Positions 13,347 to 27,634 of a DNA stretch of 29,555 nucleotides are shown here, piece by piece. Position 1 is the stretch's first letter. The number at the start of each line of letters is the position of its first letter. Origin of the DNA: a virus. The stretch lies in the IMG/VR virus record IMGVR_UViG_3300031669_000172, positions 1 through 29,555 of that record. One strand, given 5' to 3'. The notes under the pieces are model-generated. The model was given only the letters and a program-made list of their open reading frames with translations, was not told the DNA's origin and did not search any database. A program made the translations under genes and the position numbers.

Positions 13347-13366
13347 ATTTTTTACCTCGCTATTTT

Positions 13367-13669: not shown

Positions 13670-13682
13670 ACATACTACTCCT

Positions 13683-14165
13683 CTATGCGAATTTATAAGA
13701 TAACTGCACGCCTGTGCCAATCATTTGCGCACCAGTATCAAATTTATTGCGCACAGGTAAAAGCGTTGTCATTTCGTAACCGAAATTTACAGAATTGTTA
13801 GTTCGGTTTCCGAGCGTCCTTAACAACGCATCAGCATAACGTAACCCCTTACGATAATCAGTATTATTATTCCCTGCGTCTTCCATTGAAAACCAAAGGG
13901 AGACTACAAGGTTTAATTCAACCGCAGTACGTGCGTGATTATTAGGGTCTAACTTTATGCTATCGTCTACTACTATGTTAACGAAAACTTTCTCCTCTGC
14001 GGGTAACTCTGCCAAATCAATGTAATAAGAAGCATCATTGACGCTTGACAAAACTATGCCGTCAGTGTATTCGGAATTTACTTTTGCGATACAATTATTT
14101 AAATCGCTTTTTAAAAAATCCAATATGTCATCTAAAACTTGTTCTATATTTTTAATTACTTTCAT
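13683..14165 (-). CDS. Probable tail terminator / minor tail protein
   Basis: This 160-residue protein begins with a helical segment (KNIEQVLDDILDFLKSDL), then beta strands (KVFVNIVVDDSIKLD; AVELNLVVSLWFSMED) and a helix with RKGLRYADALLRTLGN. That alpha-beta layout and its place between the gpG-like completion protein and the tail tube fit tail terminator or joining proteins of the lambda gpU type. No sharp motif is seen, so the call is positional. Only a weak SD precedes the start. Confidence 0.6.
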   Translation of the reverse strand: MKVIKNIEQVLDDILDFLKSDLNNCIAKVNSEYTDGIVLSSVNDASYYIDLAELPAEEKVFVNIVVDDSIKLDPNNHARTAVELNLVVSLWFSMEDAGNNNTDYRKGLRYADALLRTLGNRTNNSVNFGYEMTTLLPVRNKFDTGAQMIGTGVQLSYKFA

Positions 14166-14171
14166 AATTTA

Positions 14172-14696
14172 TTAACCAAATATATTGCCTTTTAAATTTG
14201 CATTTCCTTTAAATCCTGCCCTTATAAATAGTCTTGATAAAGCATCTGATAAAGGTCTGTCCCAACGTTCTTTTACTGCCATATTCTTTACAAAAGGGTC
14301 GTTAAGTATTTCACGCTGTGGCATTTTCTTTGTGCCTAACTGGTGAAATTTAGCAATAGCGCTTTTACTTCCAAACGTTGCGGATTTATCGCTGATAGTA
14401 GTTATATTATCTGTACCGCCTTCATCAGAAAAAGAGCTTGCCATTTGTCCTGACAAAACCAAAGAAGGATACGCATCGCCCTTTAATCTTAATTTTTGCA
14501 TCTTTGTAGATGGCGCTAAATCTTTCCAAAATCTTAAATTGCCTTTGTTTGTATCAAAAAAACCGCCCATATGTCCACGAAATTTACGCCCTATTTCTTT
14601 GTATGCTTCTTTTAAGCGGATAAGGTTTTTATCGCCCAGTTTTTTAAAAATTGCCTGCGCGTCTTTAGAAAATTTTAAACTAAAACCATCAGCCAT
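14172..14696 (-). CDS. Phage virion morphogenesis / tail completion protein (Mu gpG-like)
   Basis: The 174-residue product carries the pattern of the phage virion morphogenesis family (PF05069): FWKDLAPSTKMQKLRLKG, then LVLSGQMASSFSDE, then AIAKFHQLGTKKMPQREILN. Members help finish and join head and tail. GAGGA lies 8 bases before the ATG. It follows the connector-type gene by one base, consistent with a head-tail joining block. Confidence 0.85.
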   Translation of the reverse strand: MADGFSLKFSKDAQAIFKKLGDKNLIRLKEAYKEIGRKFRGHMGGFFDTNKGNLRFWKDLAPSTKMQKLRLKGDAYPSLVLSGQMASSFSDEGGTDNITTISDKSATFGSKSAIAKFHQLGTKKMPQREILNDPFVKNMAVKERWDRPLSDALSRLFIRAGFKGNANLKGNIFG

Positions 14697-14697
14697 A

Positions 14698-15150
14698 TCA
14701 ACAATCCTCGCAACTTGCGTTTTCTTCCACTGTTTCGCTTACGCAAATAGGTAAATTCTCGTATCTTAAATCTTCTCTGCCATCTGCGATAGCAGTTTTT
14801 GACGTACTGTTTAAATATATTTTTTTATTTACAATATCGTCTATTTCTTGTAACGCCTCTTTTTTTAAATTTCTTTTTTTAGGAAAATCGCCCGTCTCTT
14901 TTGCGTCCGCATTAAGCACCATATCATCTATAGTCCCCGCAACCAATTTAGCGTGTAATTTTCGTAGTCGTTTTAAATCATCTACGTTCGTAATTGGAAG
15001 TTCGGCAACAACGCTAATGGCATCGTTTATAGTGCTTAATTCGTTATCCAAATGAAACTGTACTTTTGCTTCCGATAAGTTTGACGTAGCAGAAAACTTA
15101 AAACTCAAAAAGTAATTTTTAACATCCGCTACTAAAGCATAATTCGCCAT
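14698..15150 (-). CDS. Probable head-tail connector protein
   Basis: This 150-residue product starts MANYALVADVKNYFLSFKFS and is predicted mostly helical, with a LKRLRKLHAKLVAG segment. It is followed directly by the gpG-like completion protein. Size, helical make-up and position resemble gp36/DUF1320-like or gp6-type connectors, but I see no decisive motif. It ends in a Cys-containing tail (ENASCEDC). GAGG lies 10 bases upstream. Confidence 0.6.
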   Translation of the reverse strand: MANYALVADVKNYFLSFKFSATSNLSEAKVQFHLDNELSTINDAISVVAELPITNVDDLKRLRKLHAKLVAGTIDDMVLNADAKETGDFPKKRNLKKEALQEIDDIVNKKIYLNSTSKTAIADGREDLRYENLPICVSETVEENASCEDC

Positions 15151-15162
15151 ATTATAAAAACC

Positions 15163-15348
15163 TCATTTAAAAGTTACGCAATTTTCGCAGTCAAAATCGT
15201 ATGTATTAGCATCATTGCATTTTATCGGGCATATTCTATCGTCAGAATTTTCGTAATATACTTTTTTATAACAACCCGAAAGTAAAAAAATAAATAGAGA
15301 AATTGCCATTAAAAAGAAAATTACTAAATACCAAAAATCCTGTTTCAT
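15163..15348 (-). CDS. Small lipoprotein-like exported protein (61 aa)
   Basis: Residues about 6-25 are hydrophobic (FWYLVIFFLMAISLFIFLLS), directly followed by a lipobox-like LLSGC with Cys26. The mature part is short, acidic and has four further Cys (CPIKC; CENC). This fits a lipoprotein tethered to a membrane, but no charged Lys-rich n-region longer than MKQD is present. The start overlaps the previous stop (ATGA). It lies inside the structural operon, away from the lysis cassette. An o-spanin-like or host-surface role is possible but not shown. Confidence 0.7.
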   Translation of the reverse strand: MKQDFWYLVIFFLMAISLFIFLLSGCYKKVYYENSDDRICPIKCNDANTYDFDCENCVTFK

Positions 15349-16601
15349 TGCGATTTTCCCATTTTAAACACGGTATAGTTTATGCAAAATTCTAATGGGT
15401 AAAAATCGCCACCATTACTGTCCGTTCTAGTAATTTGGATAAACATTATGTCAGCTTCCAAAAAATCATCTATAGAATAGTCATCTATTAATACTACGCT
15501 TCCAACTTTACCGCCTGCGGGAATTGTTATATTACGAGTTATAATTCTATCCGAAGTTTGGCCTGCCCCTATATTTCCGTCAGTATGTGAAGCCGTGTAT
15601 AAGTCTATTTGAATGTCGGCTGTATTTATAGCCGTACTTGAAGAATATGACAATGCTATTTCTATTGGCGTAGAAGTGTCTATGCCAAACGGAAATGAGT
15701 AAGGGGCGTGTATTGCGTCCCCTAAAGCATTGCGTAGTTTATAGACTGTTTGAATAGCGGTAGAGCTTATATTTAATGTAGCGGTATTTGGAATGCCACC
15801 GTCCCAAAAATCTATAGCAGGAATTTTATGACTAATTTTAAATCTTGAAACGCCAAAGAATACATCCCAATTACATCTTATTGTTGCTATTCCATTACTG
15901 CGAAACATCACATTGTTTATTCTTGGCGGTGTTGCAATCCCACCGGGTGGTACTTCTAAAACGAGCCAATATCGGCTTTCACCTGTATTTGGTATTTTAT
16001 CTAAAATGTTATTACGTCCTACCCAGTCGTTGGAAATCTTTTCGCTAATTGTAATATATTGGTCGTTGGTAATTTGCCATAGATTTTTAGCATTTTGCTT
16101 AATACAGGTATCGTTCATTGACATCCAGTCTACTTCAACTAAATCGTCCGCTGTAATACTCCAGTATTTGACAAGATATTTTTCGGGCGAAGTTTTAGCG
16201 ACTGTGCATAACGATTTAATAGCCCACGTCAAAACACCTTGTGGACCGCTAAAATAAAGTCTATCGCCTGCATCTCCAGAAGTTATTATTTCAGTTTCAA
16301 AATCTGTTATCTCTGTAAACCTAGAGCCACTTGGGGCAGATGCATCAAGTTTCCAAATTTTCAAACCTTCCTGCGTAAAACCATTCTCTAAACCGACAGA
16401 ACTGCGAGAGCCCACATCCCCAGTTATGCTCCCCGTGCGGGTTTCTACAATATCAAATCTATCTATGGTCGTATTTAATTGCGTTGCAATGGTGGTAATT
16501 CCACCACTCAAAAGTAATGAGAAAATTGCAATAATCCAAACTGTGGAACATTTATAAGTTGCAATTGGTAAAGTAAATATATTTTTTAAAAACTTTTTCA
16601 T
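15345..16601 (-). CDS. Membrane-anchored beta-rich protein (418 aa)
   Basis: An N-terminal segment with basic residues (MKKFLKNIFTLPIATYK) leads into one hydrophobic span at about 20-38 (TVWIIAIFSLLLSGGITTI). The rest is a large beta-rich ectodomain with many Thr, Ser, Ile and Asp (TATLNISSTAIQTVYKLRN; IEIALSYSSSTAINTADIQI). The ectodomain looks like virion fibre material, yet the N-terminus would put it in a membrane. AAGGAG lies 9 bases before the ATG, and the start overlaps the previous gene (ATGA). No family is recognised. Confidence 0.75.
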   Translation of the reverse strand: MKKFLKNIFTLPIATYKCSTVWIIAIFSLLLSGGITTIATQLNTTIDRFDIVETRTGSITGDVGSRSSVGLENGFTQEGLKIWKLDASAPSGSRFTEITDFETEIITSGDAGDRLYFSGPQGVLTWAIKSLCTVAKTSPEKYLVKYWSITADDLVEVDWMSMNDTCIKQNAKNLWQITNDQYITISEKISNDWVGRNNILDKIPNTGESRYWLVLEVPPGGIATPPRINNVMFRSNGIATIRCNWDVFFGVSRFKISHKIPAIDFWDGGIPNTATLNISSTAIQTVYKLRNALGDAIHAPYSFPFGIDTSTPIEIALSYSSSTAINTADIQIDLYTASHTDGNIGAGQTSDRIITRNITIPAGGKVGSVVLIDDYSIDDFLEADIMFIQITRTDSNGGDFYPLEFCINYTVFKMGKSQ

Positions 16602-17116
16602 AAGTTTGCGCTCCTTGAAATTTCAAGCCAATTAGTGCCGTTATAAATTAGCGTTATGGTGGCATTGATATTATCTAAAGTAAAATCATTGCCTTGCGAA
16701 AGGCGTAAATTTCCTGTGCCGTGTTTTAAAGTGGTATCTCTGCCGTCATTTTCAGATGTTAAAATTAATAGCATTCCTGCCGACCCGCCATTTATGGTGT
16801 CTAACTCATCAGTAGCGTCATCTGCCTGCGTGTCTACTTTATGATAGCTTCTAATTGCCGTTATTACGCCTGTGGCGATAGTTAACTCCGTAGGCGTGCC
16901 GTAACTATATATTTCGGATTTAATCGTACCATCAGAGCCGTCAAGCGTAATTAAATATGTAGACGGAGTGTCGGCATCTTTAGCAATGCCTAAAAGTCCG
17001 CTCAAATTTCGTTCTGCGGTTTTAGTTCCTGTGTCAATTACAACGCCATCATAAATACCGGCATTTGCAAATCCGAAAAACAAAAAAGTAAGTAGAAATA
17101 ATTTTAATTTTTTCAT
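16598..17116 (-). CDS. Exported beta-rich protein with signal peptide (172 aa)
   Basis: A clear Sec-type signal peptide opens the protein: MKKLKLFLLTFLFFGFANA, with an ANA cleavage site at about residue 19. The mature part ends in GNDFTLDNINATITLIYN, LISR-like strands and a LILTSENDGRDTTLKHGTG segment. That resembles the common phage fibre end pattern 'D.itlkhgtGNl.L..g.dftL....atitliydGt.W.E'. A signal peptide on a fibre-like protein in the structural operon is odd. The function is unknown. Export of a fibre domain or host surface decoration would be inference. Confidence 0.75.
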   Translation of the reverse strand: MKKLKLFLLTFLFFGFANAGIYDGVVIDTGTKTAERNLSGLLGIAKDADTPSTYLITLDGSDGTIKSEIYSYGTPTELTIATGVITAIRSYHKVDTQADDATDELDTINGGSAGMLLILTSENDGRDTTLKHGTGNLRLSQGNDFTLDNINATITLIYNGTNWLEISRSANL

Positions 17117-17119
17117 AAT

Positions 17120-17323
17120 TTAACCTATCGTAATCCAACCGTCTGCGGCGGTCCATTGAAATAGTTGCTTAATATCCGTTGAGTACCACATTAACGCTAT
17201 AGTGGGCGCTACGGGTCTAGCTGCGTGAAGTCCTTCTTGAAGAATTACTACTGTGCTTGGGTCTCCCGAAAAATCGCTTTCCCGTCCCCTGCCTAAAATA
17301 TAATCTTCCTTATAACCACTCAT
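17120..17323 (-). CDS. Small structural-type protein (67 aa)
   Basis: The 67-residue product has ALMWYSTDIKQLFQWTAADGW, a pattern seen in short phage fibre-associated proteins ('lWydTt...lyvw.g..W'). It has no signal peptide or membrane segment. AAGG lies about 9 bases upstream. It sits between the 93-residue protein and the exported protein. The role is unknown. Confidence 0.7.
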   Translation of the reverse strand: MSGYKEDYILGRGRESDFSGDPSTVVILQEGLHAARPVAPTIALMWYSTDIKQLFQWTAADGWITIG

Positions 17324-17334
17324 AAGTTACCGCC

Positions 17335-17616
17335 TTAATTGTAAACGACAGTTGTCGCTCGGTTATTCCAAATGTTATCCTCTTTAGAATTTCCATCAGC
17401 CCACGTAATGTTGCCTTCAGTTACCGATGTTACTGGTTTTATAATCTTTTTAATACTCCAAATTGCCAACGCTTTTTTATCAAAAGAATTTATTTTAGCA
17501 GTACCGACATAAACAACGCCTACAGTACTAACTTCATCGTCTATAAGTCTTGTAATCTCTCCGCTTCGGTCATCTATTGCGGCCGCATTATTTCTTCCGC
17601 TATCATTTTCAGCCAT
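17335..17616 (-). CDS. Conserved-type phage protein with ITWADGNS motif (93 aa)
   Basis: The product contains VGVVYVGTAKINSFDKKALA, IWSIKKI and a C-terminal ITWADGNSKEDNIWNNRAT. This end pattern (tWAdGn..fdniWdnRas..Y) recurs in small proteins near phage fibre and structural genes, but their role is not known to me. The start uses the same SD-ATG context as the ClpP-fusion gene, as part of a 27-base exact repeat. It is likely virion-linked. Confidence 0.75.
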   Translation of the reverse strand: MAENDSGRNNAAAIDDRSGEITRLIDDEVSTVGVVYVGTAKINSFDKKALAIWSIKKIIKPVTSVTEGNITWADGNSKEDNIWNNRATTVVYN

Positions 17617-17637
17617 AATAATATCTCCTATTTTTTA
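17611..17637 (-). repeat. 27-base repeat covering SD and start codon, copy 1
   Basis: These 27 bases are identical to 22277-22303. On the minus strand they include an A/T-rich leader, AGGAG, ATATTATT and the ATG plus GCT of the 93-residue gene. The flanks differ on both sides. Confidence 0.85.
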
Positions 17638-17810
17638 ACTTCTAATAAATTTGCAATGCCTAAAGAATTTGTCATTACTTTAAATTTGATTAATTTATTT
17701 TTTCTTTTAATGTAAACATACTTTGTTTTTAAGTTTTTAATATCCTTATTCGTAATTACTTTAATTTCCGCTTGTGCTTTACTAAAAAGATTTTTCAAAA
17801 AAGACATCAT
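17628..17810 (-). CDS. Small basic protein (60 aa)
   Basis: Two ATGs stand in tandem at the start (17810 and 17807), with GAGG 5 or 8 bases upstream, so either start is possible. The product is Lys-rich (NKDIKNLKTKYVYIKRKNK) with an amphipathic N-terminus (MSFLKNLFSKAQ). It overlaps the 49-residue gene by 4 bases. No family is recognised. Confidence 0.7.
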   Translation of the reverse strand: MMSFLKNLFSKAQAEIKVITNKDIKNLKTKYVYIKRKNKLIKFKVMTNSLGIANLLEVKK

Positions 17811-17956
17811 TTAACCTCTTCCAAAGTATCTAAAATCCTTAATGCTTTATAAGAAAATTTAGCAGGCAATTCGCCCAAAGCATTTGAAACAACTCCTATT
17901 TTTTCAGATGTAATCAAAAATTTAAGTTCTTTGATTTCTTTTTTTTCGTCAGTCAT
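17807..17956 (-). CDS. Small helical protein (49 aa)
   Basis: The ATG at 17956 lies 3 bases after the fibre stop with GGAGG 8 bases upstream, so the SD sits within the end of the fibre gene. The product is charged and helical (TDEKKEIKELKFLI) with a C-terminal LEEVK. The stop overlaps the next ATG. It may be a fibre chaperone, but only position suggests that. Confidence 0.7.
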   Translation of the reverse strand: MTDEKKEIKELKFLITSEKIGVVSNALGELPAKFSYKALRILDTLEEVK

Positions 17957-17959
17957 TTT

Positions 17960-18940
17960 TTACGCCTCCAAAACTTTTAATCTTTCGTCCAAATTCTGTA
18001 CTGCCAACAAAGCAAGTAACCCGATTTTAGAATACTGTACAGTTTCAAGTTCTTTTAAATGGTTACCAAATTCGTCAAGGACCGGTATTTTTATTAGTCT
18101 ATTTATACCGTTCTCATCTTCTTCTATTTCACTTACGTATTCATATTTATACGAACATAATTGCGGGAAGTATTTTTCCACTTCTTCAGCGATAGTTCCT
18201 AACTGGTCTATGCCTTTTGATGTATCTTTGAAGTCAAAAAGTTTTACAGGTATTTTAAAAATATCTTCTATTTGTTCAGGCGTTAAATCTCGTAAATTTT
18301 CTTTGTACTTTAAGGCAGAAGAAATATAACCAAGTAATCCAGTATCGTCAACATAAGCGTCTCTATTTGTACTGCCCACTGTGGTATTATAAACTTCGGG
18401 CATTGTAATAGAGGCATTTTTATTTATAAAAAATGCGTCTATAAGTGGAGCGCCAATTCCATTATCTCTTGTTGCAAAACATAATTTACCGGAAACATCG
18501 TTTGTTCCAGTATACGTATCGATAAACGCCCGTATTTGCGATACTGTTATATTTGCCGTGCCATCATAAGCATTATTATTAATAGTAAAAATCTGCATAT
18601 TATCTGCTACGGCCGCAGGTATACTTTCGGTACCACCAAATCGATTAAAAGTAAATGAATTTCTATTTGCGGTATTATTTGAAAAATTTTGAGCTGAAAA
18701 AGTGGTATTTCCCCCAGTATTTTTTAAAAAAAATGCTGTTGAAATTTCTGCATTAAAACTATCAGACTGCCCAATAATTAACTTTTTATTTAGATTATCC
18801 CATACTAAATTACTATCAGCGCCAAATGCTCCACTAGCATTAAACTGTATCTGTCCATTACTGCCCGCAGGCGTACCTCCGCCCCCGCCATTGTCGGTTA
18901 TCCTTTCTTTATTAAGTAGCCAATCGTGTATTACGCCCAT
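17960..18940 (-). CDS. Fibre protein with S74 intramolecular chaperone
   Basis: The 326-residue protein begins with a phage fibre start: GGGGGTPAGSNGQIQFNASG and SNLVWDNLNKKLIIG. Its C-terminal third is an S74 / endosialidase-type chaperone that trimerises the fibre and then cuts itself off. The cleavage motif is SALKYKENL, with the catalytic Ser at 208 and Lys at 213. The domain continues with GIDQLGTIAEEVEKYFPQL and ends in a coiled coil with VQYSKIGLLALLAVQNLDER. The mature fibre would be only about 207 residues. Its place just after the capsid gene is unusual for a tail fibre. Confidence 0.88.
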   Translation of the reverse strand: MGVIHDWLLNKERITDNGGGGGTPAGSNGQIQFNASGAFGADSNLVWDNLNKKLIIGQSDSFNAEISTAFFLKNTGGNTTFSAQNFSNNTANRNSFTFNRFGGTESIPAAVADNMQIFTINNNAYDGTANITVSQIRAFIDTYTGTNDVSGKLCFATRDNGIGAPLIDAFFINKNASITMPEVYNTTVGSTNRDAYVDDTGLLGYISSALKYKENLRDLTPEQIEDIFKIPVKLFDFKDTSKGIDQLGTIAEEVEKYFPQLCSYKYEYVSEIEEDENGINRLIKIPVLDEFGNHLKELETVQYSKIGLLALLAVQNLDERLKVLEA

Positions 18941-18945
18941 AATAA

Positions 18946-19215
18946 TTAGTCTTTTTTATGCAAAAATTTGTTTAGCAAACTTGGTCTGCCTCTTTTTTTT
19001 GGCTTATTTTTGGTATCGCTTTTTTCTACTTCTTTTTTTTCCTCTTTAGCATTACAAAAGTTAATTATCTCTTTTGCTTTGCTTTCGGAAATAGTCTCTT
19101 TGAATTTTCCGCTTTTAAATACATAAAGACTTATATTTTCTAACTTTGTTAATTCGCCTTGAAAAATCTTTTTATGTGTTAAAAAAGGGATTGGATTTTT
19201 ACTTTCAACTTTCAT
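18946..19215 (-). CDS. Hypothetical protein with AT-hook-like end (89 aa)
   Basis: This gene follows the capsid gene after a stable hairpin, and GTGAGG lies 6 bases before the ATG. The product is Lys/Glu-rich and ends NKPKKRGRPSLLNKF, in which KRGRP resembles an AT-hook. Its first part is a mixed alpha/beta fold (GELTKLENISLYVFKSGKFK). Similar short proteins sit after capsid genes in other phages, but the function is unknown. Confidence 0.7.
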   Translation of the reverse strand: MKVESKNPIPFLTHKKIFQGELTKLENISLYVFKSGKFKETISESKAKEIINFCNAKEEKKEVEKSDTKNKPKKRGRPSLLNKFLHKKD

Positions 19216-19227
19216 TTTTTACCTCAC

Positions 19228-19258
19228 TTTAAGGGGGAGCGATTAACTCCCCCCTAAA
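19228..19258 (-). terminator. Hairpin after the major capsid gene
   Basis: On the minus strand TTTA-G-GGGGGAG (19258-19247) pairs with CTCCCCC-T-TAAA (19239-19228) as 12 bp. The G-T wobble is an A/C mismatch on the other strand, so the fold belongs to the minus-strand RNA. The loop is TTAATCG. No clean T-run follows, so partial termination or 3'-end stabilisation is as likely as true termination. Confidence 0.65.
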
Positions 19259-19266
19259 TTTATAAG

Positions 19267-20262
19267 TTAAGTATTCGTAACTTTAATAGTGCTCCACCAA
19301 GCACCATAACCAAGTCCGTGTCTGCGATATAAACCGTAGCGTAACTCATTGCCCGATTTAAATGCGTCATCAGTCGGTTTTGGCGTTCTTATTTCCAAAG
19401 GATATTCGTTTGAAATTAAGACAGGCGCAAAACCTTTTGCTATTTCTTTTGTATTGAAACAGTAAAAGTCGTTTGCATCTGCTAATTTTCTTGATACGAA
19501 TTTAAGCCCTTTGAATAAGTTTGTTTCGCTTGAAGTCGCTGTGCTTGCGATGACATCTAACGAAGCCAACTTGGTAAACAAACCTTTCAACTCAGAAGGT
19601 ATCAAAACACCTAAATCGCTAATCATCATATCCTGATTAAGCTGTCTTGCGTCTTCGTTTGAGCCGTCTGCGGTAACAGGGTAAGTGAATGTATCAAACC
19701 TTGATATAACCGTAAGTAAATCAGCGTGTAATTTTGCGATTGTATCTGCGCCACTTCCCGCTACGATATTGCTTTGACTTCCTGCGATATCAGCCCAAGC
19801 GTGCGTTGTGTCATAGAGGTTTTGTTTGTCAAAGGTTATGCCTTTAGTACTGCCAGCGCCTGCCTCAATGTATTGTACGGCTTGTTTAAGCGGATATTCT
19901 CGCGCGGCCGCAGTCATTACATCTATTTGCTTTTGAAACGGATTTAACGCCATCAAATTTTCATTTGCAGCGGCTCTATCAAAATCCGCAAAAGGTATAG
20001 TTACACCTTTGCCATATTCTTCGTTTACGACTTTGAAATCAAAACTATCGGCAGGGCTCTGATACGTAATGCCTTTGCCGTTTAGTTTTTCTAAATCCTG
20101 TAAAAAGTTAAGTAATGGAAATGTAGTCTCGTGCGTTTTTCCCGACATAAATTCCCAAAACATACTTTTTAAAACAGGGTTTAGAGGTTGATATTCTTTG
20201 ATAAAGTCGGTTTTAACTTTAATGTTAAATTGCTCGACCAGTTGTTTTATTGTTTTTGCCAT
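19267..20262 (-). CDS. Major capsid protein (Mu gpT-like)
   Basis: The 331-residue protein has the size, composition and order expected of an HK97-fold capsid subunit. Resemblance to Mu-type gpT comes from the segment GKGVTIPFADFDRAAANENL, the motif KQNLYDTTHAWADIAG (a Gx.nfFdt.H type signature) and the closing RHGLGYGAWWSTIKVTNT. AGGAG lies 9 bases before the ATG. It follows the protease/scaffold and decoration genes in standard order. No separate N-terminal cleavable domain is obvious. Confidence 0.88.
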   Translation of the reverse strand: MAKTIKQLVEQFNIKVKTDFIKEYQPLNPVLKSMFWEFMSGKTHETTFPLLNFLQDLEKLNGKGITYQSPADSFDFKVVNEEYGKGVTIPFADFDRAAANENLMALNPFQKQIDVMTAAAREYPLKQAVQYIEAGAGSTKGITFDKQNLYDTTHAWADIAGSQSNIVAGSGADTIAKLHADLLTVISRFDTFTYPVTADGSNEDARQLNQDMMISDLGVLIPSELKGLFTKLASLDVIASTATSSETNLFKGLKFVSRKLADANDFYCFNTKEIAKGFAPVLISNEYPLEIRTPKPTDDAFKSGNELRYGLYRRHGLGYGAWWSTIKVTNT

Positions 20263-20285
20263 AATTTTTATCTCCTAAAAAATAA

Positions 20286-20726
20286 TTATATCTCTACAAA
20301 CGCTTCTGTTGACGAAAGCCATTTGCGGATAGTGCCAACAAGTACATCATTGGTAGTAGTGCCAACCAAATCAACGCTTGAGCTATCTGCGACATATACT
20401 AAAGTGCTAGGCACGCCAGTAATAATCGTCAATGCAGTAGCCAACGTCATTTTAACCCACTGCCCTGTGCCTGCGGGAATAATGCGGATTTTGTTATCAG
20501 CATCAGAACCGCCTGCCGCTTGACTTAAAGCATCTATTGCAATGCCTGCAAAAGCCAAATCAGTAGCGCTATCGCTTGCCGTAGTTGCGTATCCATCAGC
20601 GTTATAATTGATTAATTCGCCTTTGTTAATCTCAAGAGCGCCAGCGGCAACGTCTACCTCAATATATTCGGTAGGCGGAATGCCGGGCAATCTCTCAATA
20701 ATTTTATTCGTAGTTAAATCAGCCAT
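20286..20726 (-). CDS. Probable capsid decoration / stabilisation protein
   Basis: This 146-residue, Ala/Thr-rich beta protein lies between the protease/scaffold gene and the capsid gene, the usual place of decoration proteins such as lambda gpD or the DUF2190 group. It begins MADLTTNKIIERLPGIPP and contains VAAGALEINKGELINYNADG, a common start of capsid-binding beta barrels. No His or Ser catalytic motif is present. GAGG lies 9 bases upstream. Confidence 0.7.
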   Translation of the reverse strand: MADLTTNKIIERLPGIPPTEYIEVDVAAGALEINKGELINYNADGYATTASDSATDLAFAGIAIDALSQAAGGSDADNKIRIIPAGTGQWVKMTLATALTIITGVPSTLVYVADSSSVDLVGTTTNDVLVGTIRKWLSSTEAFVEI

Positions 20727-20743
20727 AATTTAATACCTCGCTT

Positions 20744-21229
20744 TTATATTTTTCTAGCTTTGAGGATATCTTCCTCTTTTAAGCTTGGGTCAGACTTCAT
20801 AACTTCCATTTCTGCGTCAGTCAAAGTTTTATCGTCTTTTTCCCCGCTATCCCCAATTGCTTTTGTATGTATAACTTTTGGGGCATCTGCGTAGAATTTT
20901 TTCATATCTTCCGCAGTTTTAAATTGCGAAAAGCAAGCGTCCTTCATACCTTCTGCTACTTTGCCTTCCGATTTAATGTTTTCAAAAACAGTCTTTTTTT
21001 CCATTCCTTCTATTTTGTCTGAAAGGTCAGAGACTGTTTTTTTCAAATCAGCGTTTTCGCCTTCAACTTCTTTTTTACCGTCAACGTCAGATTTGATTTT
21101 TTTCAATTCCGCCTCAAGTTCTTTGTTTTTTTCAGATAACTTTTTGGCGTCATCGTTAGTTTTCAAAAGAGCATTAACGTCAATTTTGTGCTCCTCTGAA
21201 AGTTTTTTTATCATACTTTCTTTGTCCAT
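20744..21229 (-). CDS. Nested scaffold protein, internal start
   Basis: Within the fusion gene, ATG at 21229 (residue 352, MDKESMIKKLSEEHK) is preceded by AAGGAG with a 9-base spacer, as good as any true SD in the window. It would give a 161-residue product made of the coiled-coil scaffold only (ELEAELKKIKSDV region). This matches lambda C/Nu3 and Mu I/Z, where a scaffold is translated from inside the protease gene. It is predicted from the SD and domain border, not proven. Confidence 0.65.
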   Translation of the reverse strand: MDKESMIKKLSEEHKIDVNALLKTNDDAKKLSEKNKELEAELKKIKSDVDGKKEVEGENADLKKTVSDLSDKIEGMEKKTVFENIKSEGKVAEGMKDACFSQFKTAEDMKKFYADAPKVIHTKAIGDSGEKDDKTLTDAEMEVMKSDPSLKEEDILKARKI

Positions 21230-22282
21230 AACTTCTAACTCCTTAATTTGAAATACCGATTTTTCTGATAATTTAATCGGCTCGCCTTTTTGGAAAGGTC
21301 TATTTGTCAGCGATGCGCCTACCAACACATTGTTAAACCTTTCGCCTTTTTCGTTAACATAGTTTTTGTTAAAAAATTCAGGACTGATGTATTTATACTC
21401 CCCATTAGATATTGACTTCCTTGCATTGTCAGTAAAACTAACACCACCCCATAATTCTTTGTTTTCGTTTTTGAAAAACAGTTTTTTAATCCAGCCCCAA
21501 GCGGGTTTTTCACCTGCGTCATTATCGTGGGTATTTTCTACCGATATGTCTATGCCTCTTACATTGTTTTTGAAATTATTATTAATTTCTAAAAGGTCGG
21601 TTTCGCTTAAATTGAAATTGCCTTGCGATAAACTTTGATAATCGCCAACTTTAAAAAGCATCGCCTCGCTTAATTTATTGGTATCTTCCGAAAGTTTAAA
21701 GGCTTGTTGTATGCCCGATAGTTTTTCGTTCATTTTAAATTTTTCCCTTACGACATCGGTAAACACCTCATCGGCTATACCGTAAGCTATTGCCTCTTGT
21801 GCGTTTAGATATTTATCTGTTTTGAAAACGTCCTCTTTGATTTGCTCTAAAGTTTTACCAGTGTTTTGTGCTAAAATTCCTAAAAGTCTGTTTTCAAGTT
21901 TTTTTACTTCAGCTAACTCCTCTGTCATTTCAGGCGTTGTTCCAAATGCACCTGCCGAAACTCCGTGTAGCATAATCTCGGCATTTTCCCCGACAAATCT
22001 TTTATCACCTGCCGAAAATAAAACCGAACCGCAAGACATAGCCGTACCCAAAGCTATTGTATAAATAGGATTTGGCACAGAGTTCATCGTATCTAAAATA
22101 GCGAATAAATCTAAAACATTGCCACCAACGCTATTGATATAAATCCTTATCGGCTCTTTATTGTCAATTTCGCTATAAGCGATTATTTGCTGCGATATAT
22201 AATTAGCCGTAAAATTGTCAAATTCGTCAAACAAAAATATATCTCTGTTTAATACATTTTTCTCTAAAACATTCCTAGCCAT
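20744..22282 (-). CDS. Head maturation polyprotein: ClpP-type + Mu gpI-type + scaffold
   Basis: The 512-residue product joins three head-maturation parts. Residues 1-178 are a ClpP-fold S14 serine protease with Ser83 (GTAMSCGSVLFSAG), His106 (IMLHGVSAG) and Asp156 (KTDKYLNAQEA) in ClpP-like context. Residues about 205-335 match the Mu gpI protease family (PF10123): GIDISVENTHDNDAGEKPAW, then GWIKKL, YISPEFF and LVGASLTNRPF. Residues about 352-512 are a charged coiled-coil scaffold. Internal SD-preceded starts at 21229 (strong) and 21733 (moderate) may give shorter products. AGGAG is 8 bases before the ATG, and a long hairpin precedes it. Confidence 0.85.
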   Translation of the reverse strand: MARNVLEKNVLNRDIFLFDEFDNFTANYISQQIIAYSEIDNKEPIRIYINSVGGNVLDLFAILDTMNSVPNPIYTIALGTAMSCGSVLFSAGDKRFVGENAEIMLHGVSAGAFGTTPEMTEELAEVKKLENRLLGILAQNTGKTLEQIKEDVFKTDKYLNAQEAIAYGIADEVFTDVVREKFKMNEKLSGIQQAFKLSEDTNKLSEAMLFKVGDYQSLSQGNFNLSETDLLEINNNFKNNVRGIDISVENTHDNDAGEKPAWGWIKKLFFKNENKELWGGVSFTDNARKSISNGEYKYISPEFFNKNYVNEKGERFNNVLVGASLTNRPFQKGEPIKLSEKSVFQIKELEVMDKESMIKKLSEEHKIDVNALLKTNDDAKKLSEKNKELEAELKKIKSDVDGKKEVEGENADLKKTVSDLSDKIEGMEKKTVFENIKSEGKVAEGMKDACFSQFKTAEDMKKFYADAPKVIHTKAIGDSGEKDDKTLTDAEMEVMKSDPSLKEEDILKARKI

Positions 22283-22303
22283 AATAATATCTCCTATTTT
22301 TTA
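22277..22303 (-). repeat. 27-base repeat covering SD and start codon, copy 2
   Basis: These bases are identical to 17611-17637 over 27 bases, including AGGAG and the start codon of the protease fusion gene. The flanks differ. Confidence 0.85.
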
Positions 22304-22308
22304 CATTT

Positions 22309-22371
22309 AGACGCAAAAGGGACGCACTAATAAATTTTGAGTTTATTAATACGCCCCTTTGGAAAGCGTCT
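22309..22371 (-). promoter_or_regulatory. Long RNA hairpin 25 bases before the protease start
   Basis: On the minus strand a 19-bp arm (22360-22342) pairs with 22334-22316 across a 7-base loop. Sixteen pairs are Watson-Crick and three are G-T. On the plus strand those three would be A/C mismatches, so the minus-strand RNA is the folded form. An outer stem AGACGC 22371-22366 with GCGTCT 22314-22309 extends it across a 5/1 bulge. It lies 27 bases before the ATG and is not followed by a T-run, so it is more likely a processing or translation-control element than a terminator. Confidence 0.7.
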
Positions 22372-22417
22372 TCTATCGGTCTGCCAAAGACAGTGAGAGG
22401 TAGCGAACCTTTACCGA

Positions 22418-22446
22418 AATTTAAGTTTAATAAAAAACTTAATCAA
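22418..22446 (-). promoter_or_regulatory. Weak candidate promoter
   Basis: On the minus strand TTGATT (22446-22441), a 17-base spacer and TAAATT (22423-22418) match sigma-70 boxes at 4 of 6 positions each. In AT-rich DNA such matches occur often by chance. The only support is its place in the largest gap of the head module. Confidence 0.25.
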
Positions 22447-22495
22447 ATTTTAAAATAGCTATAATACTTTTACTAAATTAATCTTAATAAAACAA

Positions 22496-24616
22496 CTAAA
22501 AACTACGTTGCGCCCAAATACTTGGGGGTGGTAACTGGTCATCTATCTTTGCTTTTGGTTCGTCCGCATATATCGGCCGCATAAAACTACGGCAATTAAA
22601 ATGCAAAGGCGGGCGTACTTGTGAAAGCGCAATACCGCCAACACTATATATATGTCCGTTTAACCATCGGCATATATCCGTTGTATTTCCATCATCAACT
22701 GCAATAAATTGATATGCCTGTATCAAATCGGGGTTTTGTTTCCCAAAATCCATAAAGCCAACGTTTGAGCCATCTGTAATTAAATGGCTTGATGCTGTGC
22801 CTATTGGACCGCTTAAAATATAGTCATCTAAAGATTTGTTGACTTCGGCTATGGTTTGTTTTGTCGTAAATCCCTTATCGGTTTTGTTTTGCGCGACAAA
22901 AACGGCTTTAACTTTCATAGAAGTGGTTTGGTCATCTATGACGTTGTTAGACATATTCTTGGCATAGACTTTTAAATTGTCCGGCAAATTATTCGGGTCC
23001 ACGTCAGGTATTTCCGCAAGTTTTAATTTAGTCGTATGCCCTTTGGCATCTTTTTTAGCGGTTAAAAAACCGTCTCCAACAAAGTAAGATACCTTTTGTA
23101 CAAGGCCACTACGATATTTGTTTATTAACGGAACGTCTAAATTCAATATGCCACGTTGCGGTATTTGTCCCTTATTAAGTATTTTTTCTAAATTGACAAG
23201 TAATTTTTCTTTTATTACTGTCATATTTTCACGCATAAAATCAGTTAAAAGAGGTTTGTTTTTTTCTACAAATTTATTACGCTCTTTTTGTAAGGCAGAA
23301 TTGCTTTTTTCTGCAAGTTTTAGTTTAGTTGCGTTTTCGCTTAAAGGCATCGGCTCCGATGGTTTGGGTTGCGGTTCTGCGATTTGTTTTTCGCGCTCTA
23401 TTTTCTGCTCCTCTGTAAGATTTGGCATTTCCATTTTGGTACGGATAAAATCCTCATCGCTAATAGTAGGCTTAATTGCGCCCTTCTCAATTAGTAAAGC
23501 GTAATTAGTTATAAAGGTCTGTATTTTGCCTTTGTTGACGTTTAAACCGATTAATTCAGGGTAGACGTCCTGCTTGCCAAAATTAATATCTATCATTGGT
23601 TTAATTATTTTGTTATTGAAAGTATTCGTAATTAAATCAATTAAGTACTGCAAACTATCTAAAAAGATTTGCGATTGCACATCGCCTAAAGCAAAGCTAC
23701 CGCCTTTACTAGCTTGCCCTAATTCTAAAAACTGTGTCATTACAGATTTTGCCATCTGCGTATTATGCCGGGAGATTTTTTGATTTGTTATTGCATTATT
23801 ATAATTTCCAAATTGCCAAGTAAAAACATAATCGGGATATCTAATCATATACGGATTTTGCGAACGCCCAATACGTTGTAAAATACTTTGCACAGCTTTA
23901 TAATCGGGGCTATCGGGCTTTACACTTTTAGGAATAACCATATCGGGTACACCGATTGCGTTTTTACGAACTCCAATAGTGTCAATTACTTCTGTTTCGC
24001 TCTTGCGTTTCCAATCCCAGTAACTCCATCGTAAAAGCGATGTACCACGCAGGTCATCGCCCTCTTGATTTAAAACAAAAAAGACTAAATACTCAAAAGG
24101 TATGTCTACTAACTGTCCATCTGTCCGTCTTTGTTGTATTATTTCATTTCTTGGCTGTATCTCCTCAATAGATACTTGCAGTCGGGCAAGTAATTCGGGG
24201 ACGGTATATCTTTTACCTTCATAATCCCAAATAGAATAAACTTGTTCAAAAATACTAAAGCCATACTCGGTAAAAGACAATAGCTGATATAAAAGATTAA
24301 CGAACGCTATAGGATAATTTTTAAAAAAATAATCCTTGCAAAATTTAGCGTGAAATTTGTGTTTTTTGTCATCAGAACTTGTAGATATATCCCAGTCGGC
24401 AGAGAGGATAGGCGTTTTAATCATATTGAGCATCATTCCGATTTGACTGTCAAAACTCATTTTTTCGTAAATGAAACTGCCTTGTAAGCCACGTAATGGT
24501 GGTTTAGGTTCTGCGGAAACTTCTAGCCCTTCGTCAATAGTGCCGTAATCGCCTATGGCGGTAGTATGTACTTCGTCAATCTTTTGTTTTGGTTTTAAAA
24601 AATTTAAAAAAGCCAT
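22496..24616 (-). CDS. Portal protein fused to MuF-type head protein
   Basis: The 706-residue protein joins two head proteins that are usually separate. The N-terminal part (about 30-420) follows the DUF935 / Mu gp29-type portal pattern: PPLRGLQGSFIYEKMSFD, LPFEYLVFFVLNQEGDDLRG-type strands and KISRHNTQMAKSVMTQFLEL. The C-terminal part (about 460-690) is MuF-like, ending with DDGNTTDICRWLNG (from about 641) and PPLHFNCRSFMRPI (669-682), the Zn-site-like MuF motif with Cys675. It follows the large terminase by only a few bases (TAAATG). The portal forms the DNA entry ring, and MuF proteins help build the head. Confidence 0.88.
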   Translation of the reverse strand: MAFLNFLKPKQKIDEVHTTAIGDYGTIDEGLEVSAEPKPPLRGLQGSFIYEKMSFDSQIGMMLNMIKTPILSADWDISTSSDDKKHKFHAKFCKDYFFKNYPIAFVNLLYQLLSFTEYGFSIFEQVYSIWDYEGKRYTVPELLARLQVSIEEIQPRNEIIQQRRTDGQLVDIPFEYLVFFVLNQEGDDLRGTSLLRWSYWDWKRKSETEVIDTIGVRKNAIGVPDMVIPKSVKPDSPDYKAVQSILQRIGRSQNPYMIRYPDYVFTWQFGNYNNAITNQKISRHNTQMAKSVMTQFLELGQASKGGSFALGDVQSQIFLDSLQYLIDLITNTFNNKIIKPMIDINFGKQDVYPELIGLNVNKGKIQTFITNYALLIEKGAIKPTISDEDFIRTKMEMPNLTEEQKIEREKQIAEPQPKPSEPMPLSENATKLKLAEKSNSALQKERNKFVEKNKPLLTDFMRENMTVIKEKLLVNLEKILNKGQIPQRGILNLDVPLINKYRSGLVQKVSYFVGDGFLTAKKDAKGHTTKLKLAEIPDVDPNNLPDNLKVYAKNMSNNVIDDQTTSMKVKAVFVAQNKTDKGFTTKQTIAEVNKSLDDYILSGPIGTASSHLITDGSNVGFMDFGKQNPDLIQAYQFIAVDDGNTTDICRWLNGHIYSVGGIALSQVRPPLHFNCRSFMRPIYADEPKAKIDDQLPPPSIWAQRSF

Positions 24617-25825
24617 TTATAACTCTATCCCACCAAATACACCAGTATCGCCCGAAATGTAATCTTTCAATTTAGTATACAAACCGTAGCGTAATGCGTC
24701 AAGTAAATGGTCGTTAAATTTAATCGGTTCATCTAAAAAATTCCCATCCTTATTTTTTTTCCACGAATACGATTTAATTTCTTTGATTACATTATCAGAT
24801 TTCTTTGTAATATGCAAGCGGAATTTTTTAACGAAATCAATGCCTGTCTTTACGCTCTTATCGGAAGGCATCGCATTAAAGCCACCTTCTCGGCATATCT
24901 CCTCTATACGTGCGGGTTCTGCGCAATCCGCAAATATCTCGTTATGTTTATCTATGTTTAGTTTTTTTAGCTCTTCTATGACATCGGAATTTGTCAGCCC
25001 TGTTTTATAAAGTAACTCATCTATGTAAACCTCTTTGTCTTTGATTTTAATTTCAATTAAAGCAGTCGGGACATTATATCCGAAGTCAAGGCCGTAAAAA
25101 GTTTCAAAATCTCCCTTTGGCATTTCGTCTACTAAATTATAGTTTTTGTATATCAGCCCTTCGGTGTTGCCCCACTCGCCTAACGTAAAGATTTTGTAAG
25201 CGTTTTCGTCTTGGTTTTTTAAATCGGTTAGAATTTTAACATAATCCTCGCCCAAAAAAGGATTATCTAAATAATTGCTTTTGATTAAATTACAGTTAGG
25301 CTCTTTGATTAATTTAGTTGCAATCCAACTGTTTGCGTCTTCGGGGTTTAAACTTAAAAAGATTTGATTGAGTTCGCCTAAAGATGTTTTGCCTGATAGC
25401 CGTGTGTAAAGCGTTATGTAATCTCTAAAGGTAAACTCGCTCGCCTCTTCAAGCCATATGTAATTAAATTCCGTGCTTTTTATCTTTTCGGGGTCGTCTA
25501 AACTAAAGAATTGTACTCGGTTGTTTTTTTCGGGGAAATCGTAAAAGTTTTCAGTACGGTTATGATGCTCTACGTTGTAAAGCCCCCACTCTTTTAAGAT
25601 ATCTATAAACAGGCGATAAGCAGTCATCTTAAGCGCAGGTAGCGTTTTACGTGTAATGCCGATGTTCTTGTTGCGTTCGGTACGCATCTTGTAAGCGAAT
25701 AACTGCGCTATGCTATAACTCTTACTGCTACGTGCGCCCCCTATATTGCAATTAATCTTATACTTGCTTTCATAATTGCGTTTAAAAACGCTTGTTATGG
25801 TTAACTCTTTTTTATTTTCGGGCAT
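24617..25825 (-). CDS. terL: Terminase large subunit (PBSX-like)
   Basis: The 402-residue product is the DNA packaging motor. The ATPase part has a deviant Walker A (IGGARSSKSYSIAQL, Lys35) and Walker B plus catalytic Glu (YIWLEEASEF, 122-131). The nuclease part has three acidic sites: LDFGYNVP (Asp247), FADCAEPAR (Asp300) and NDHLLDALRY (Asp372/376). The order and wording match the PBSX/Terminase_3 family. I chose ATG 25825; TTG codons at 25834/25831 could also start. No strong SD is seen, so coupling to the 53-residue gene is likely. Confidence 0.95.
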   Translation of the reverse strand: MPENKKELTITSVFKRNYESKYKINCNIGGARSSKSYSIAQLFAYKMRTERNKNIGITRKTLPALKMTAYRLFIDILKEWGLYNVEHHNRTENFYDFPEKNNRVQFFSLDDPEKIKSTEFNYIWLEEASEFTFRDYITLYTRLSGKTSLGELNQIFLSLNPEDANSWIATKLIKEPNCNLIKSNYLDNPFLGEDYVKILTDLKNQDENAYKIFTLGEWGNTEGLIYKNYNLVDEMPKGDFETFYGLDFGYNVPTALIEIKIKDKEVYIDELLYKTGLTNSDVIEELKKLNIDKHNEIFADCAEPARIEEICREGGFNAMPSDKSVKTGIDFVKKFRLHITKKSDNVIKEIKSYSWKKNKDGNFLDEPIKFNDHLLDALRYGLYTKLKDYISGDTGVFGGIEL

Positions 25826-25973
25826 TATCAACAATGTGCTCTATTATTTTATTTTGTACTTCATTTACTTTTATATTTACGTCAATAACTTTTTTTAGTC
25901 TATCAATCCTTAAGTTATTTAGAAAAATTGCCGTGCATATAAAAATTATAGATATTCCAATTTCTTTGCTCAT
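25812..25973 (-). CDS. Small membrane protein before the terminase (53 aa)
   Basis: ATG at 25973 overlaps the previous stop (ATGA) and has GGGGG 8 bases upstream. The product starts MSKEIGISIIFICTAIF, a single hydrophobic segment, followed by a charged helical tail (NLRIDRLKKVIDVNIKVNEV). It overlaps the terminase start by 14 bases. Strong SD, coupling and exact fit into the gap support a real gene, but the function is unknown. Confidence 0.7.
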   Translation of the reverse strand: MSKEIGISIIFICTAIFLNNLRIDRLKKVIDVNIKVNEVQNKIIEHIVDNARK

Positions 25974-26269
25974 TTTGTTTCCCCCTTCATTTTTTTGTTG
26001 ACTTTTGCTTTTTTTACTAACTCAATAGCTATGTCTCGCTGATTATCAAAAGTTCTAATTTCTTTTAATACCTCATCTATCTTTAAACCTTTGGAAAGTA
26101 AACTGTAAAATACATCATTTGTTTTCTGCGAAAGATAAGTAGTGTCTTTTAAAATTGCCCTCGCTTGCATCATTGCAAGTTTTAATTTAGTGTAGTCTTT
26201 TTTTAATACCAAATCTTTTGCTTCTGATTTTTTTAAATTTACTTTATCTTTTGCTTTTTTCTTTTGCAT
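25970..26269 (-). CDS. Lys-rich helical protein near terminase (99 aa)
   Basis: The product is Lys-rich and helical (MQKKKAKDKVNLKKSEAKD, DEVLKEIRTFDNQRDIAIEL). The pattern is not that of known small terminases, but its place next to them is suggestive. AGGA lies 9 bases upstream. It may be a second packaging accessory or DNA-binding protein. Confidence 0.7.
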   Translation of the reverse strand: MQKKKAKDKVNLKKSEAKDLVLKKDYTKLKLAMMQARAILKDTTYLSQKTNDVFYSLLSKGLKIDEVLKEIRTFDNQRDIAIELVKKAKVNKKMKGETK

Positions 26270-26280
26270 AATTATTTATC

Positions 26281-26571
26281 CTAATTGTACCTAGAACATT
26301 CGTATTTTAATTTTCCGCAATGCTCGCAAACTTCTTTCGTTATTTTATATTTTTCTAAACGTTCCTTTTTTTCAAGTTCATATGCCGCACGTCTTGTTTC
26401 TGCATCTCTCTTTATTTTAACCTTACTGTCTAGAAAATTTTTACATTTTTTCTTGTTATTTTGAATATATCCCTTATCGCAATAATCCTGTAAAGTATCT
26501 CCTCCAAAGTCATCGCAACCGGCATAATAACATTTAGCGCAAAGTCCAGTCTTTATATCATCAGTAGTCAT
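26281..26571 (-). CDS. Cysteine-rich protein, zinc-ribbon-like (96 aa)
   Basis: This product has eight Cys. CAKCYYAGC lies near the start, CDKGY and KKKCKNF in the middle and CEHCGKLKYEC near the end, consistent with two zinc-binding sites split by a charged helix (RRAAYELEKKERLEKYK). The start overlaps the small terminase stop (ATGA) with a G-run SD. The function is unknown. Confidence 0.75.
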   Translation of the reverse strand: MTTDDIKTGLCAKCYYAGCDDFGGDTLQDYCDKGYIQNNKKKCKNFLDSKVKIKRDAETRRAAYELEKKERLEKYKITKEVCEHCGKLKYECSRYN

Positions 26572-26942
26572 CTATCCCCCTTTTTATTCTCAACTAAAAC
26601 AAGGCTGATGTCGGGCGCTCTGTCATCTTTATTTATTACTTTGTCAGGTACTTTGCCTAATACTCTTTGAAATAGTACCTCTGCCCGTTGCGGTTCGCCC
26701 TTATTAACCGATACTAAAAAGGCGCTTGCTACTATCGCCTCAAGCACATTGCTCTGCTTATTATTACGGATTTCCGAAAGCTCCTCAATTGACTTGTTAC
26801 CAAAACGTTGGATTATTTCTATCAAGTCGTTTTTAGTCTCTTGCTTCATTTTCTTAATTTCAGGCGGTAACTTCGGCTGTCCTTTGCCGTGCTTATTGCC
26901 TTTTTTAAATTTATGTTTTGGATTTGGATTGCCTTTTGCCAT
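26568..26942 (-). CDS. Probable terminase small subunit (DUF5681-like N-terminus)
   Basis: The 124-residue product begins AKGNPNPKHKFKKGNKHGKG, the typical start of DUF5681-type small terminases (Nxxx.FKkGxSgNPxGrp). A helical middle follows (TKNDLIEIIQRFGNKSIEEL). It is encoded just upstream of the terminase block. No SD is visible before ATG 26942, and two direct repeats of 10 bases sit directly in front of it. Small terminases bind pac or cos DNA, so the identification is fair but not decisive. Confidence 0.7.
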   Translation of the reverse strand: MAKGNPNPKHKFKKGNKHGKGQPKLPPEIKKMKQETKNDLIEIIQRFGNKSIEELSEIRNNKQSNVLEAIVASAFLVSVNKGEPQRAEVLFQRVLGKVPDKVINKDDRAPDISLVLVENKKGDR

Positions 26943-26946
26943 AATT

Positions 26947-26967
26947 TTATGTGTTTGTTATGTGTTT
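26947..26967. promoter_or_regulatory. Tandem 10-base direct repeats before the small terminase
   Basis: TTATGTGTTT occurs at 26947-26956 and again at 26958-26967, with an 11-base period. The repeats fill the space where an SD should be, between the Cys-rich gene's stop and the terminase start. They could be a protein-binding site, for instance for the terminase itself. Confidence 0.5.
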
Positions 26968-27199
26968 AATTTGTTTTATCTTTTATTATTTTTCTCAACG
27001 TATCAGTGTATCTCGTTTCATACCTTTTGCTTTCAGCACATTTTCTACAAAAACTAAAATAATATCTAGTAGTAACTGGCAAAGCGCCGTAATCATCTTT
27101 ATAAAAACAGTTAATCTCGCCAGATTTACAACTGGTTATTTCAACTCCACATTCGTGACAGTGATTTTTGTCTTTAGAATTTAAGCATAGTAATTTCAT
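26966..27199 (-). CDS. Cysteine-rich protein (77 aa)
   Basis: The protein has paired Cys in HCHECG and CRKCAESK, with other Cys at the start and middle, fitting a zinc-ribbon. It starts at ATG 27199, 24 bases after the ParB-like gene stop, without a clear SD. It is in the same frame as the ParB-like gene upstream, separated by one TAA stop and eight sense codons. The role is unknown. Confidence 0.7.
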   Translation of the reverse strand: MKLLCLNSKDKNHCHECGVEITSCKSGEINCFYKDDYGALPVTTRYYFSFCRKCAESKRYETRYTDTLRKIIKDKTN

Positions 27200-27223
27200 A
27201 GTTATTTTAATAACTTCGCCTTT

Positions 27224-27433
27224 TTACCTGTCAGGTTTTAGCTTTTTAAGGGCTTTAATCCTTGTATGACCGCCTAGTATTATAAAATCGTTATCTACTA
27301 TTATGGGGGCAATATAGCCGTTCTTTTTAATGCTATCGCATACGTAATCAACTGCCTTGTCGTTTTTACGTGGATTGCGCTCGTAAGGTTTAATCTTATT
27401 TAATGCGATATTTTTTAAGTGTTCTTTTTTCAT
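27224..27433 (-). CDS. Truncated ParB-like domain protein (69 aa)
   Basis: The product is the N-terminal half of a ParB/Sulfiredoxin-type nuclease domain. ALNKIKPYERNPRKNDKAVD is the characteristic start, followed by SIKKNGYIAPIIVD and ILGGHTRIKALKKL (the GGHTR motif). Full-length versions continue for at least 30 more residues after ALKKL, often fused to a DNA methylase. Here a TAA follows 4 codons later (KPDR). No SD is visible upstream. It may be a remnant or a genuine mini-domain. Confidence 0.75.
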   Translation of the reverse strand: MKKEHLKNIALNKIKPYERNPRKNDKAVDYVCDSIKKNGYIAPIIVDNDFIILGGHTRIKALKKLKPDR

Positions 27434-27445
27434 AATAATACTATA

Positions 27446-27634
27446 TTACATTGTACTAAATACTTTCAAGGTATTCTGCTCTTTTGACATATCCCAAATT
27501 TCGTAGTAATTGATGTCTCGCCGGGTAAGACAAAAGTGTTGTGCGTGGATACGTGCCTTTTGAATGCAACCGTATATATGCCTTTCGCAAAAGCCGTTAA
27601 GTAAATACAGTCTTAACTCTATTTTTTTAAACAT
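27446..27634 (-). CDS. Small hypothetical protein (62 aa)
   Basis: ATG 27634 has GGAG 6 bases upstream, within the end of the upstream gene (16-base overlap). The product is basic with three Cys and several His (CERHIYGCIQKARIHAQHFC), which may bind a metal. No family is recognised. Confidence 0.65.
   Translation of the reverse strand: MFKKIELRLYLLNGFCERHIYGCIQKARIHAQHFCLTRRDINYYEIWDMSKEQNTLKVFSTM

Follow-up and report, generated by a model that had tools for sequence, protein, structure and literature searches.

A phage head gene joining a ClpP-type and a gp21-type protease to a coiled-coil scaffold in a single chain

We describe a single gene that joins a ClpP-type (S14) protease domain, a protease domain of the Mu gpI and T4 gp21 type (Mu-I) and a coiled-coil scaffold in one uninterrupted open reading frame (ORF) of 512 codons on the minus strand of a virus contig (IMG/VR record IMGVR_UViG_3300031669_000172, positions 1 to 29,555; this whole 29,555-nt stretch is the window). 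The explanation that we favour, and to which we give an even chance, is that this gene supplies head protease and scaffold to an uncultured tailed phage whose head is Mu-like, and that both proteases probably work. The sequence strongly indicates that the gene makes two proteins, the 512-residue chain and the 161-residue scaffold alone. Head maturation in tailed phages relies on proteases of unrelated types, and it seems that on more than one occasion a protease of one type has taken the place of another. Each part of the gene is known, but their combination is new and is conserved among a few uncultured phages; the novelty appears to lie in carrying two unrelated proteases in one chain.

Pfam places CLP_protease (PF00574) at residues 10-175 of the chain (E 5.5e-42; positions 14-180 of the 182 in the profile) and Mu-like_Pro (PF10123) at residues 253-497 (E 4.5e-20), the latter scoring 72.9 bits against a gathering cut-off of 25.2. 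The matches of the ClpP part in PDB and PHROG searches stop near residue 176-187, and in the PHROG search with the fusion the two protease domains never came under one single profile. The first-pass annotation, made from the letters of the sequence, had read the chain as ClpP, Mu gpI-type protease and scaffold. Pfam, the PHROG and PDB matches of the ClpP part and a fold model of the Mu-I part all bear this out, and the motifs GWIKKL, YISPEFF and LVGASLTNRP stand where it had placed them. It had also said what would refute it, namely a region 205-335 that matched neither PF10123 nor any protease fold, or loss of the catalytic residues across close relatives; PF10123 matches, the relatives keep the residues, and the claim stands.

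Table 1 Features of the fusion gene and its neighbours in the window
Feature	Position	Strand	Details
Fusion gene: ClpP (S14) domain, Mu gpI/gp21-type protease domain, coiled-coil scaffold	20744-22282	minus	512 aa
AGGAG ribosome-binding site of fusion gene	22291-22295	minus	8 nt before ATG at 22282
ClpP/S14 domain, residues 10-176	21755-22255	minus	PF00574, S. aureus ClpP alignment, triad
Ser83 codon	22034-22036	minus	ClpP triad
His106 codon	21965-21967	minus	ClpP triad
Asp156 codon	21815-21817	minus	ClpP triad
Linker 179-208, with candidate cleavage sites	21659-21748	minus	residues 186-194 pLDDT <50
KLSE 196-199	21686-21697	minus	ClpP/Mu-I linker, candidate cleavage site
KLSE 203-206	21665-21676	minus	ClpP/Mu-I linker, candidate cleavage site
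Mu gpI/T4 gp21-type protease domain, residues 205-336	21275-21670	minus	PF10123, fold match, H252/S300
His252 codon	21527-21529	minus	invariant in 45 sequences
Ser300 codon	21383-21385	minus	invariant in 45 sequences
KLSE 337-340, candidate cleavage site	21263-21274	minus	directly after Mu-I domain; KLSE in 4/4 members
Internal Shine-Dalgarno AAGGAG	21239-21244	minus	9 nt before ATG codon 352
Coiled-coil scaffold, residues 352-512	20744-21229	minus	predicted separate 161-aa product from ATG 352
KLSE 360-363	21194-21205	minus	in scaffold
KLSE 381-384	21131-21142	minus	in scaffold
Portal (Mu gp29-type) fused to Mu F-type minor head protein	22496-24616	minus	706 aa; PF06074 E 5.6e-34
KLAE 433-436 in portal-F	23309-23320	minus	candidate cleavage site
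KLAE 532-535 in portal-F	23012-23023	minus	candidate cleavage site
Small head (decoration-type) protein, adjoins fusion gene	20286-20726	minus	phrog_1731, virion structural protein
Major capsid protein, Mu gpT-like	19267-20262	minus	PF10124 E 2e-6; phrog_371 major head protein

The ClpP domain carries the intact triad that the annotation had reported: Ser83, His106 and Asp156 align with the catalytic columns of ClpP and do not vary among the four members of the family described below. It lacks the axial N-terminal segment of cellular ClpP (roughly 15-20 residues): in the PDB search, the alignment to S. aureus ClpP begins at query residue 7 and ClpP residue 22. Against NF045542, a model for ClpP-related head maturation proteases, it scores 91.1 bits under a curated cut-off of 120, and by sequence it is thus similar in kind to those proteins but not filed under that model. 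Such an enzyme might do its work in the infected cell, for example by changing how host ClpP functions or by breaking down a host protein, and merely be encoded in a head gene. The nearest solved structures are indeed cellular ClpP enzymes, and plasmid-borne ClpP genes exist in Campylobacterota; nevertheless, we regard this as very unlikely, since, of the family matches that have a named role, the best are to phage head maturation proteases (phrog_94 and phrog_2976), the gene lies between the portal and capsid genes, and the missing N-terminal segment is the one used with ClpX. One ClpP match on an Arcobacter plasmid was set aside, as it adjoins plasmid-type genes and not head genes.

The Mu-I domain was modelled with AlphaFold (residues 200-345) from an alignment of 45 sequences drawn from the window and viral contigs, giving a mean pLDDT of 87 and a pTM of 0.82. 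The top PDB match of the model is the T4 capsid protease gp21 (5jbl, probability 0.95), and next to it stand the Kaposi and Epstein-Barr virus proteases; probabilities for the gp21 and herpesvirus matches are about 0.9. The E-values of this search are weak (0.03-0.08) and the top-ranked matches are the expected ones, so that the assignment to the gp21 fold rests on the fold matches and the sequence match together. The domain-only model and its fold match rule out a chance coiled-coil match as the source of the assignment. The nearest named relatives of this domain, and of the terminase, are in Helicobacter and Campylobacter phages, at 35-42% identity.

Whether this domain still cuts bears directly on the favoured explanation. 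Across the 45 Mu-I domains 11 columns are invariant, His252 and Ser300 among them. The histidine motif, D-Y-E-H in most members of the Mu-I family, reads E-N-T-H here, which places Glu for Asp at position 249; Thr326/Asn327 and Glu249 are candidates for the third catalytic residue, none of them assignable. The altered motif could mean that only ClpP cuts the head proteins and that the Mu-I domain is a leftover linking protease to scaffold or portal, and ClpP-type head proteases on a scaffold without a gpI domain do occur in Gordonia and Mycobacterium phages. We consider this improbable: the change from Asp to Glu is conservative, His252 and Ser300 are constant in the 45 sequences and in all members of the family despite 56-66% identity, and a pure binding domain would not need the two together.

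The order ClpP, gpI and scaffold recurs in three other virus contigs (L001, L010 and L013), and all catalytic residues of both proteases are kept in all four members. L001 encodes a protein of 614 residues with an additional N-terminal module and a diverged ClpP domain; the 512-residue ORF of L010 is 53-54% identical to the window protein; and the 639-residue protein of L013, also with an extra N-terminal module, is 49% identical. PF10123 scores 65.3 bits in L010 and 55.5 bits in L013. Identity among members is 49-62% for the ClpP domains and, apart from the identical pair of window and L001, 56-66% for the Mu-I domains and 42-46% for the scaffolds. In each diverged pair, both protease domains show more synonymous than non-synonymous divergence (dS > dN), indicating that both are under purifying selection. 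The annotation had asked whether one protease now acts only in binding; we do not favour this, because the catalytic residues of both are retained across the three diverged versions.

The family comprises four metagenomic contigs but three diverged versions, since two of the contigs are nearly the same apart from the ClpP module. That all copies are metagenomic and two come from near-identical phages leaves room for an assembly artefact or a one-off recombinant, but three diverged versions from different metagenomes keep the frame, the domain order, the linker motifs and the internal start, which makes such an origin barely conceivable. ClpP as a neighbour fused in frame, or through an assembly error, is ruled out by L001, L010 and L013.

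Between the window and L001, identity is 99.3% over 22306-27489 and 94.7% over 12747-22248. Within the second of these stretches the ClpP module drops to 66-75% nucleotide identity for the greater part of its length, and the N-terminal module that precedes it in L001 is absent from the window. The divergence of ClpP beside an identical Mu-I domain and scaffold suggests that the ClpP module undergoes divergence or exchange separately from its surroundings. A diverged stretch is likewise present in the capsid gene (79-91% over about 20.1-19.5 kb); in 150-base bins, divergent patches at 73-95% lie at 19538-20138 (capsid gene) and 15938-17138 (genes at 15345-17116). The gap between the portal and fusion genes (window 22283-22495) contains an inverted repeat (AAAGGGGCG...CGTCCCTTTT), and a 27-base sequence at window 22277-22303 recurs at L001:10148-10174; these repeats are a possible exchange point for the ClpP module.

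An exchangeable end, 66-75% identical where the sequence upstream is 99% identical and the Mu-I domain and scaffold do not differ at all, is also what might be seen if only the Mu-I domain were the head protease and ClpP a ring-forming or docking module or a swappable N-terminal one, and other Mu-I proteins do bear varied non-protease N-terminal modules. We judge this somewhat unlikely, because Ser83, His106 and Asp156 stay constant at 49-62% ClpP identity with dS above dN, and preservation of a triad is not expected from a structural role alone. As to the N-terminal modules themselves, a small one (PYPNEHAARL...FRR...) precedes ClpP in L001:5197-5530 and L013:5566-6006 and occurs also in L015 (Synechococcus phage S-CBS1 gp04), whose chain contains a capsid domain and weakly matches an S78 protease. 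The Mu-I proteases of L041, L088, L093 and L133 share another (SWSFSAEDGN...WFLGHD...KYPFGK), which had no Pfam match above cut-off in the three proteins scanned.

The pairing of the two proteases appears rare in the sequences surveyed. Of 103 further distinct Mu-I-type ORFs, taken from viral contigs and from bacterial genomes, none contains a ClpP domain, nor is there a ClpP ORF in the 1-3 kb flanks around them, which fits the annotation's remark that a phage normally relies on one of the two types. Beyond the family, whole-chain, gpI-only and ClpP-only scans of the viral contigs gave no fusion of ClpP with gpI, and none was found among 30 loci examined from 395 bacterial genomes. Not one of 50,697 phage records or 72,556 plasmids covered at least 80% of the fusion, and no chain with both proteases was among them. 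Within the collection of papers searched, none joined ClpP with 'Mu-like prophage I protein'. Three ClpP proteins (L014, L137 and L138) are without a visible gpI domain, and ORF86 of Microcystis phage MaMV-DC, a long match of the fold search, has gpI-like motifs by eye and no ClpP match.

An internal start, which the annotation had missed, very probably yields in addition the final third of the chain as a protein of its own, the 161-residue scaffold. The predicted helices of the scaffold span residues 369-402 and 407-438. The ATG after the second linker is preceded at equal distance by a Shine-Dalgarno (SD) sequence in the window (AAGGAG), L010 (CAGGAG) and L013 (AAGGAG). Synonymous recoding of the window produced a six-base SD site there in 798 of 20,000 trials (4%); taken by itself the window is therefore suggestive, and stronger evidence comes from the Mu-I family. 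An SD of at least five bases stands at the first ATG past the protease domain in 74 of 99 Mu-I-family genes, compared with 30 of 490 other internal ATGs (p 2e-47, counting related sequences separately), strongly indicating that an internal scaffold start is a feature of the whole Mu-I family. Nested arrangements are known in the head genes of Mu and lambda. The internal starts at the ClpP/Mu-I junction (M184 and M208) have no well-spaced SD. In L010, the first ATG of the ORF sits in a hairpin-like repeat, and the real start is probably 26 codons downstream of it.

The neighbours of the fusion gene are head genes (Table 1). In the portal-F protein, the Mu F-type part has a weak PF04233 match (E 4.4e-4) that lies below the cut-off of that family. 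Similar fused portal-F chains occur in L010 and L013, and the window's KLAE motifs fall in the joining region. Elsewhere in the window, 454-882 (minus strand) holds a phage-borne gene resembling peptide deformylase (PF01327, E 4.7e-21).

A short motif, KL(S/A)E, links the fusion and portal-F proteins. It occurs five times in the former, a count reached in none of 100,000 shuffles, and twice in the latter, a count reached in 35 of 100,000, and it is absent from all 33 other window proteins tested. Its places are the ClpP/Mu-I linker, the point right after the Mu-I domain (within a linker, 332-352, predicted to be disordered with pLDDT <50), the scaffold and the stretch between the portal and F domains. 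L-S-(E/D) is kept at four motif places in all members, and in L001 and L010 the motif is nearly limited to the same two genes. Proteases of the gp21 type cut after Glu in short x-x-E motifs, ITE/LTE in T4 and AXE in SPN3US (PMC5694885). By their resemblance to these, the KL(S/A)E motifs are candidate gp21-type cleavage sites, at which the Mu-I domain would presumably cut, with the portal-F protein a likely substrate; alternatively, the motif may serve as a binding peptide. KL(S/A)E does not occur in the capsid protein, whose processing the favoured explanation therefore does not cover.

Comparison with known systems shows how the parts relate. Like the Mu gpI family (PF10123 and phrog_328), the window protein has a gp21/herpes-type protease followed by a coiled-coil scaffold with internal SD and ATG, but it carries a complete ClpP domain in front. 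Like the ClpP-type head maturation proteases (phrog_94, phrog_2976 and NF045542), it has a ClpP domain with an intact triad N-terminal to a scaffold-like region, but a second, unrelated protease stands between the two. Gordonia phage Nettuno gp4 combines ClpP with a region that matches PF10123 in its C-terminal, scaffold portion (positions 144-300, E 1.9e-8), and has no gpI protease domain; that region matches both phrog_2976 (ClpP type) and phrog_328 (gpI type). The two protease types thus occur on related scaffolds, which lends support to viewing the window gene as a possible intermediate stage in the replacement of one protease by the other. By sequence, the window scaffold likely belongs in this series of shared scaffolds, although alone it scores 24.9 bits against PF10123 (cut-off 25.2), as unrelated families do similarly. 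ClpP-capsid fusions (NF045540) in Paracoccus prophages likewise join a ClpP protease to another Mu-like-type head protein, but there the partner is the capsid protein and a second protease domain is not identified (PMC6536676). The 848-residue chain of Microcystis phage vB_MaeS-yong1 (L007:3887-6433), rich in L(S/A)E motifs, is also a long head fusion, with a gpI-type protease flanked by LSE motifs, but it has no ClpP domain, and a capsid-like region follows the scaffold. Salmonella phage SPN3US similarly keeps two prohead-protease homologues, gp245 and gp117, with cleavage after x-x-E (PMC5694885); those, however, are separate genes of the same fold, one of them diverged, whereas here two unrelated folds share one chain.

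Under the favoured explanation, the shared coiled coil would bring a few full chains into the prohead along with many copies of the scaffold. After closure of the shell, the gp21-type domain would cut after the KL(S/A)E motifs of the linkers and so release both itself and the ClpP domain, and would also trim the scaffold and split the portal from the F-type tail. The ClpP domain, without the axial segment used with the ClpX unfoldase, might act free of ATP on further head substrates, the scaffold or the capsid protein for example. The gene may have arisen by addition of ClpP to a gpI-scaffold gene or by insertion of gpI into a ClpP-scaffold gene, both being kept. A bolder form of this proposal, possible though doubtful, is that the proteases act in sequence, the gp21-type domain cutting both fused head proteins at KL(S/A)E sites and releasing ClpP, which would clear the scaffold or trim the capsid, and that the gene is a living intermediate in a head-protease swap on a common scaffold.

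On our reading, two unrelated head proteases are both kept here, perhaps in an intermediate in the replacement of one by the other on a shared scaffold. A chain with both types on one scaffold, and both active sites conserved, makes the question of head-protease replacement directly testable, and the linker motifs and internal start yield concrete predictions of cut sites and products.
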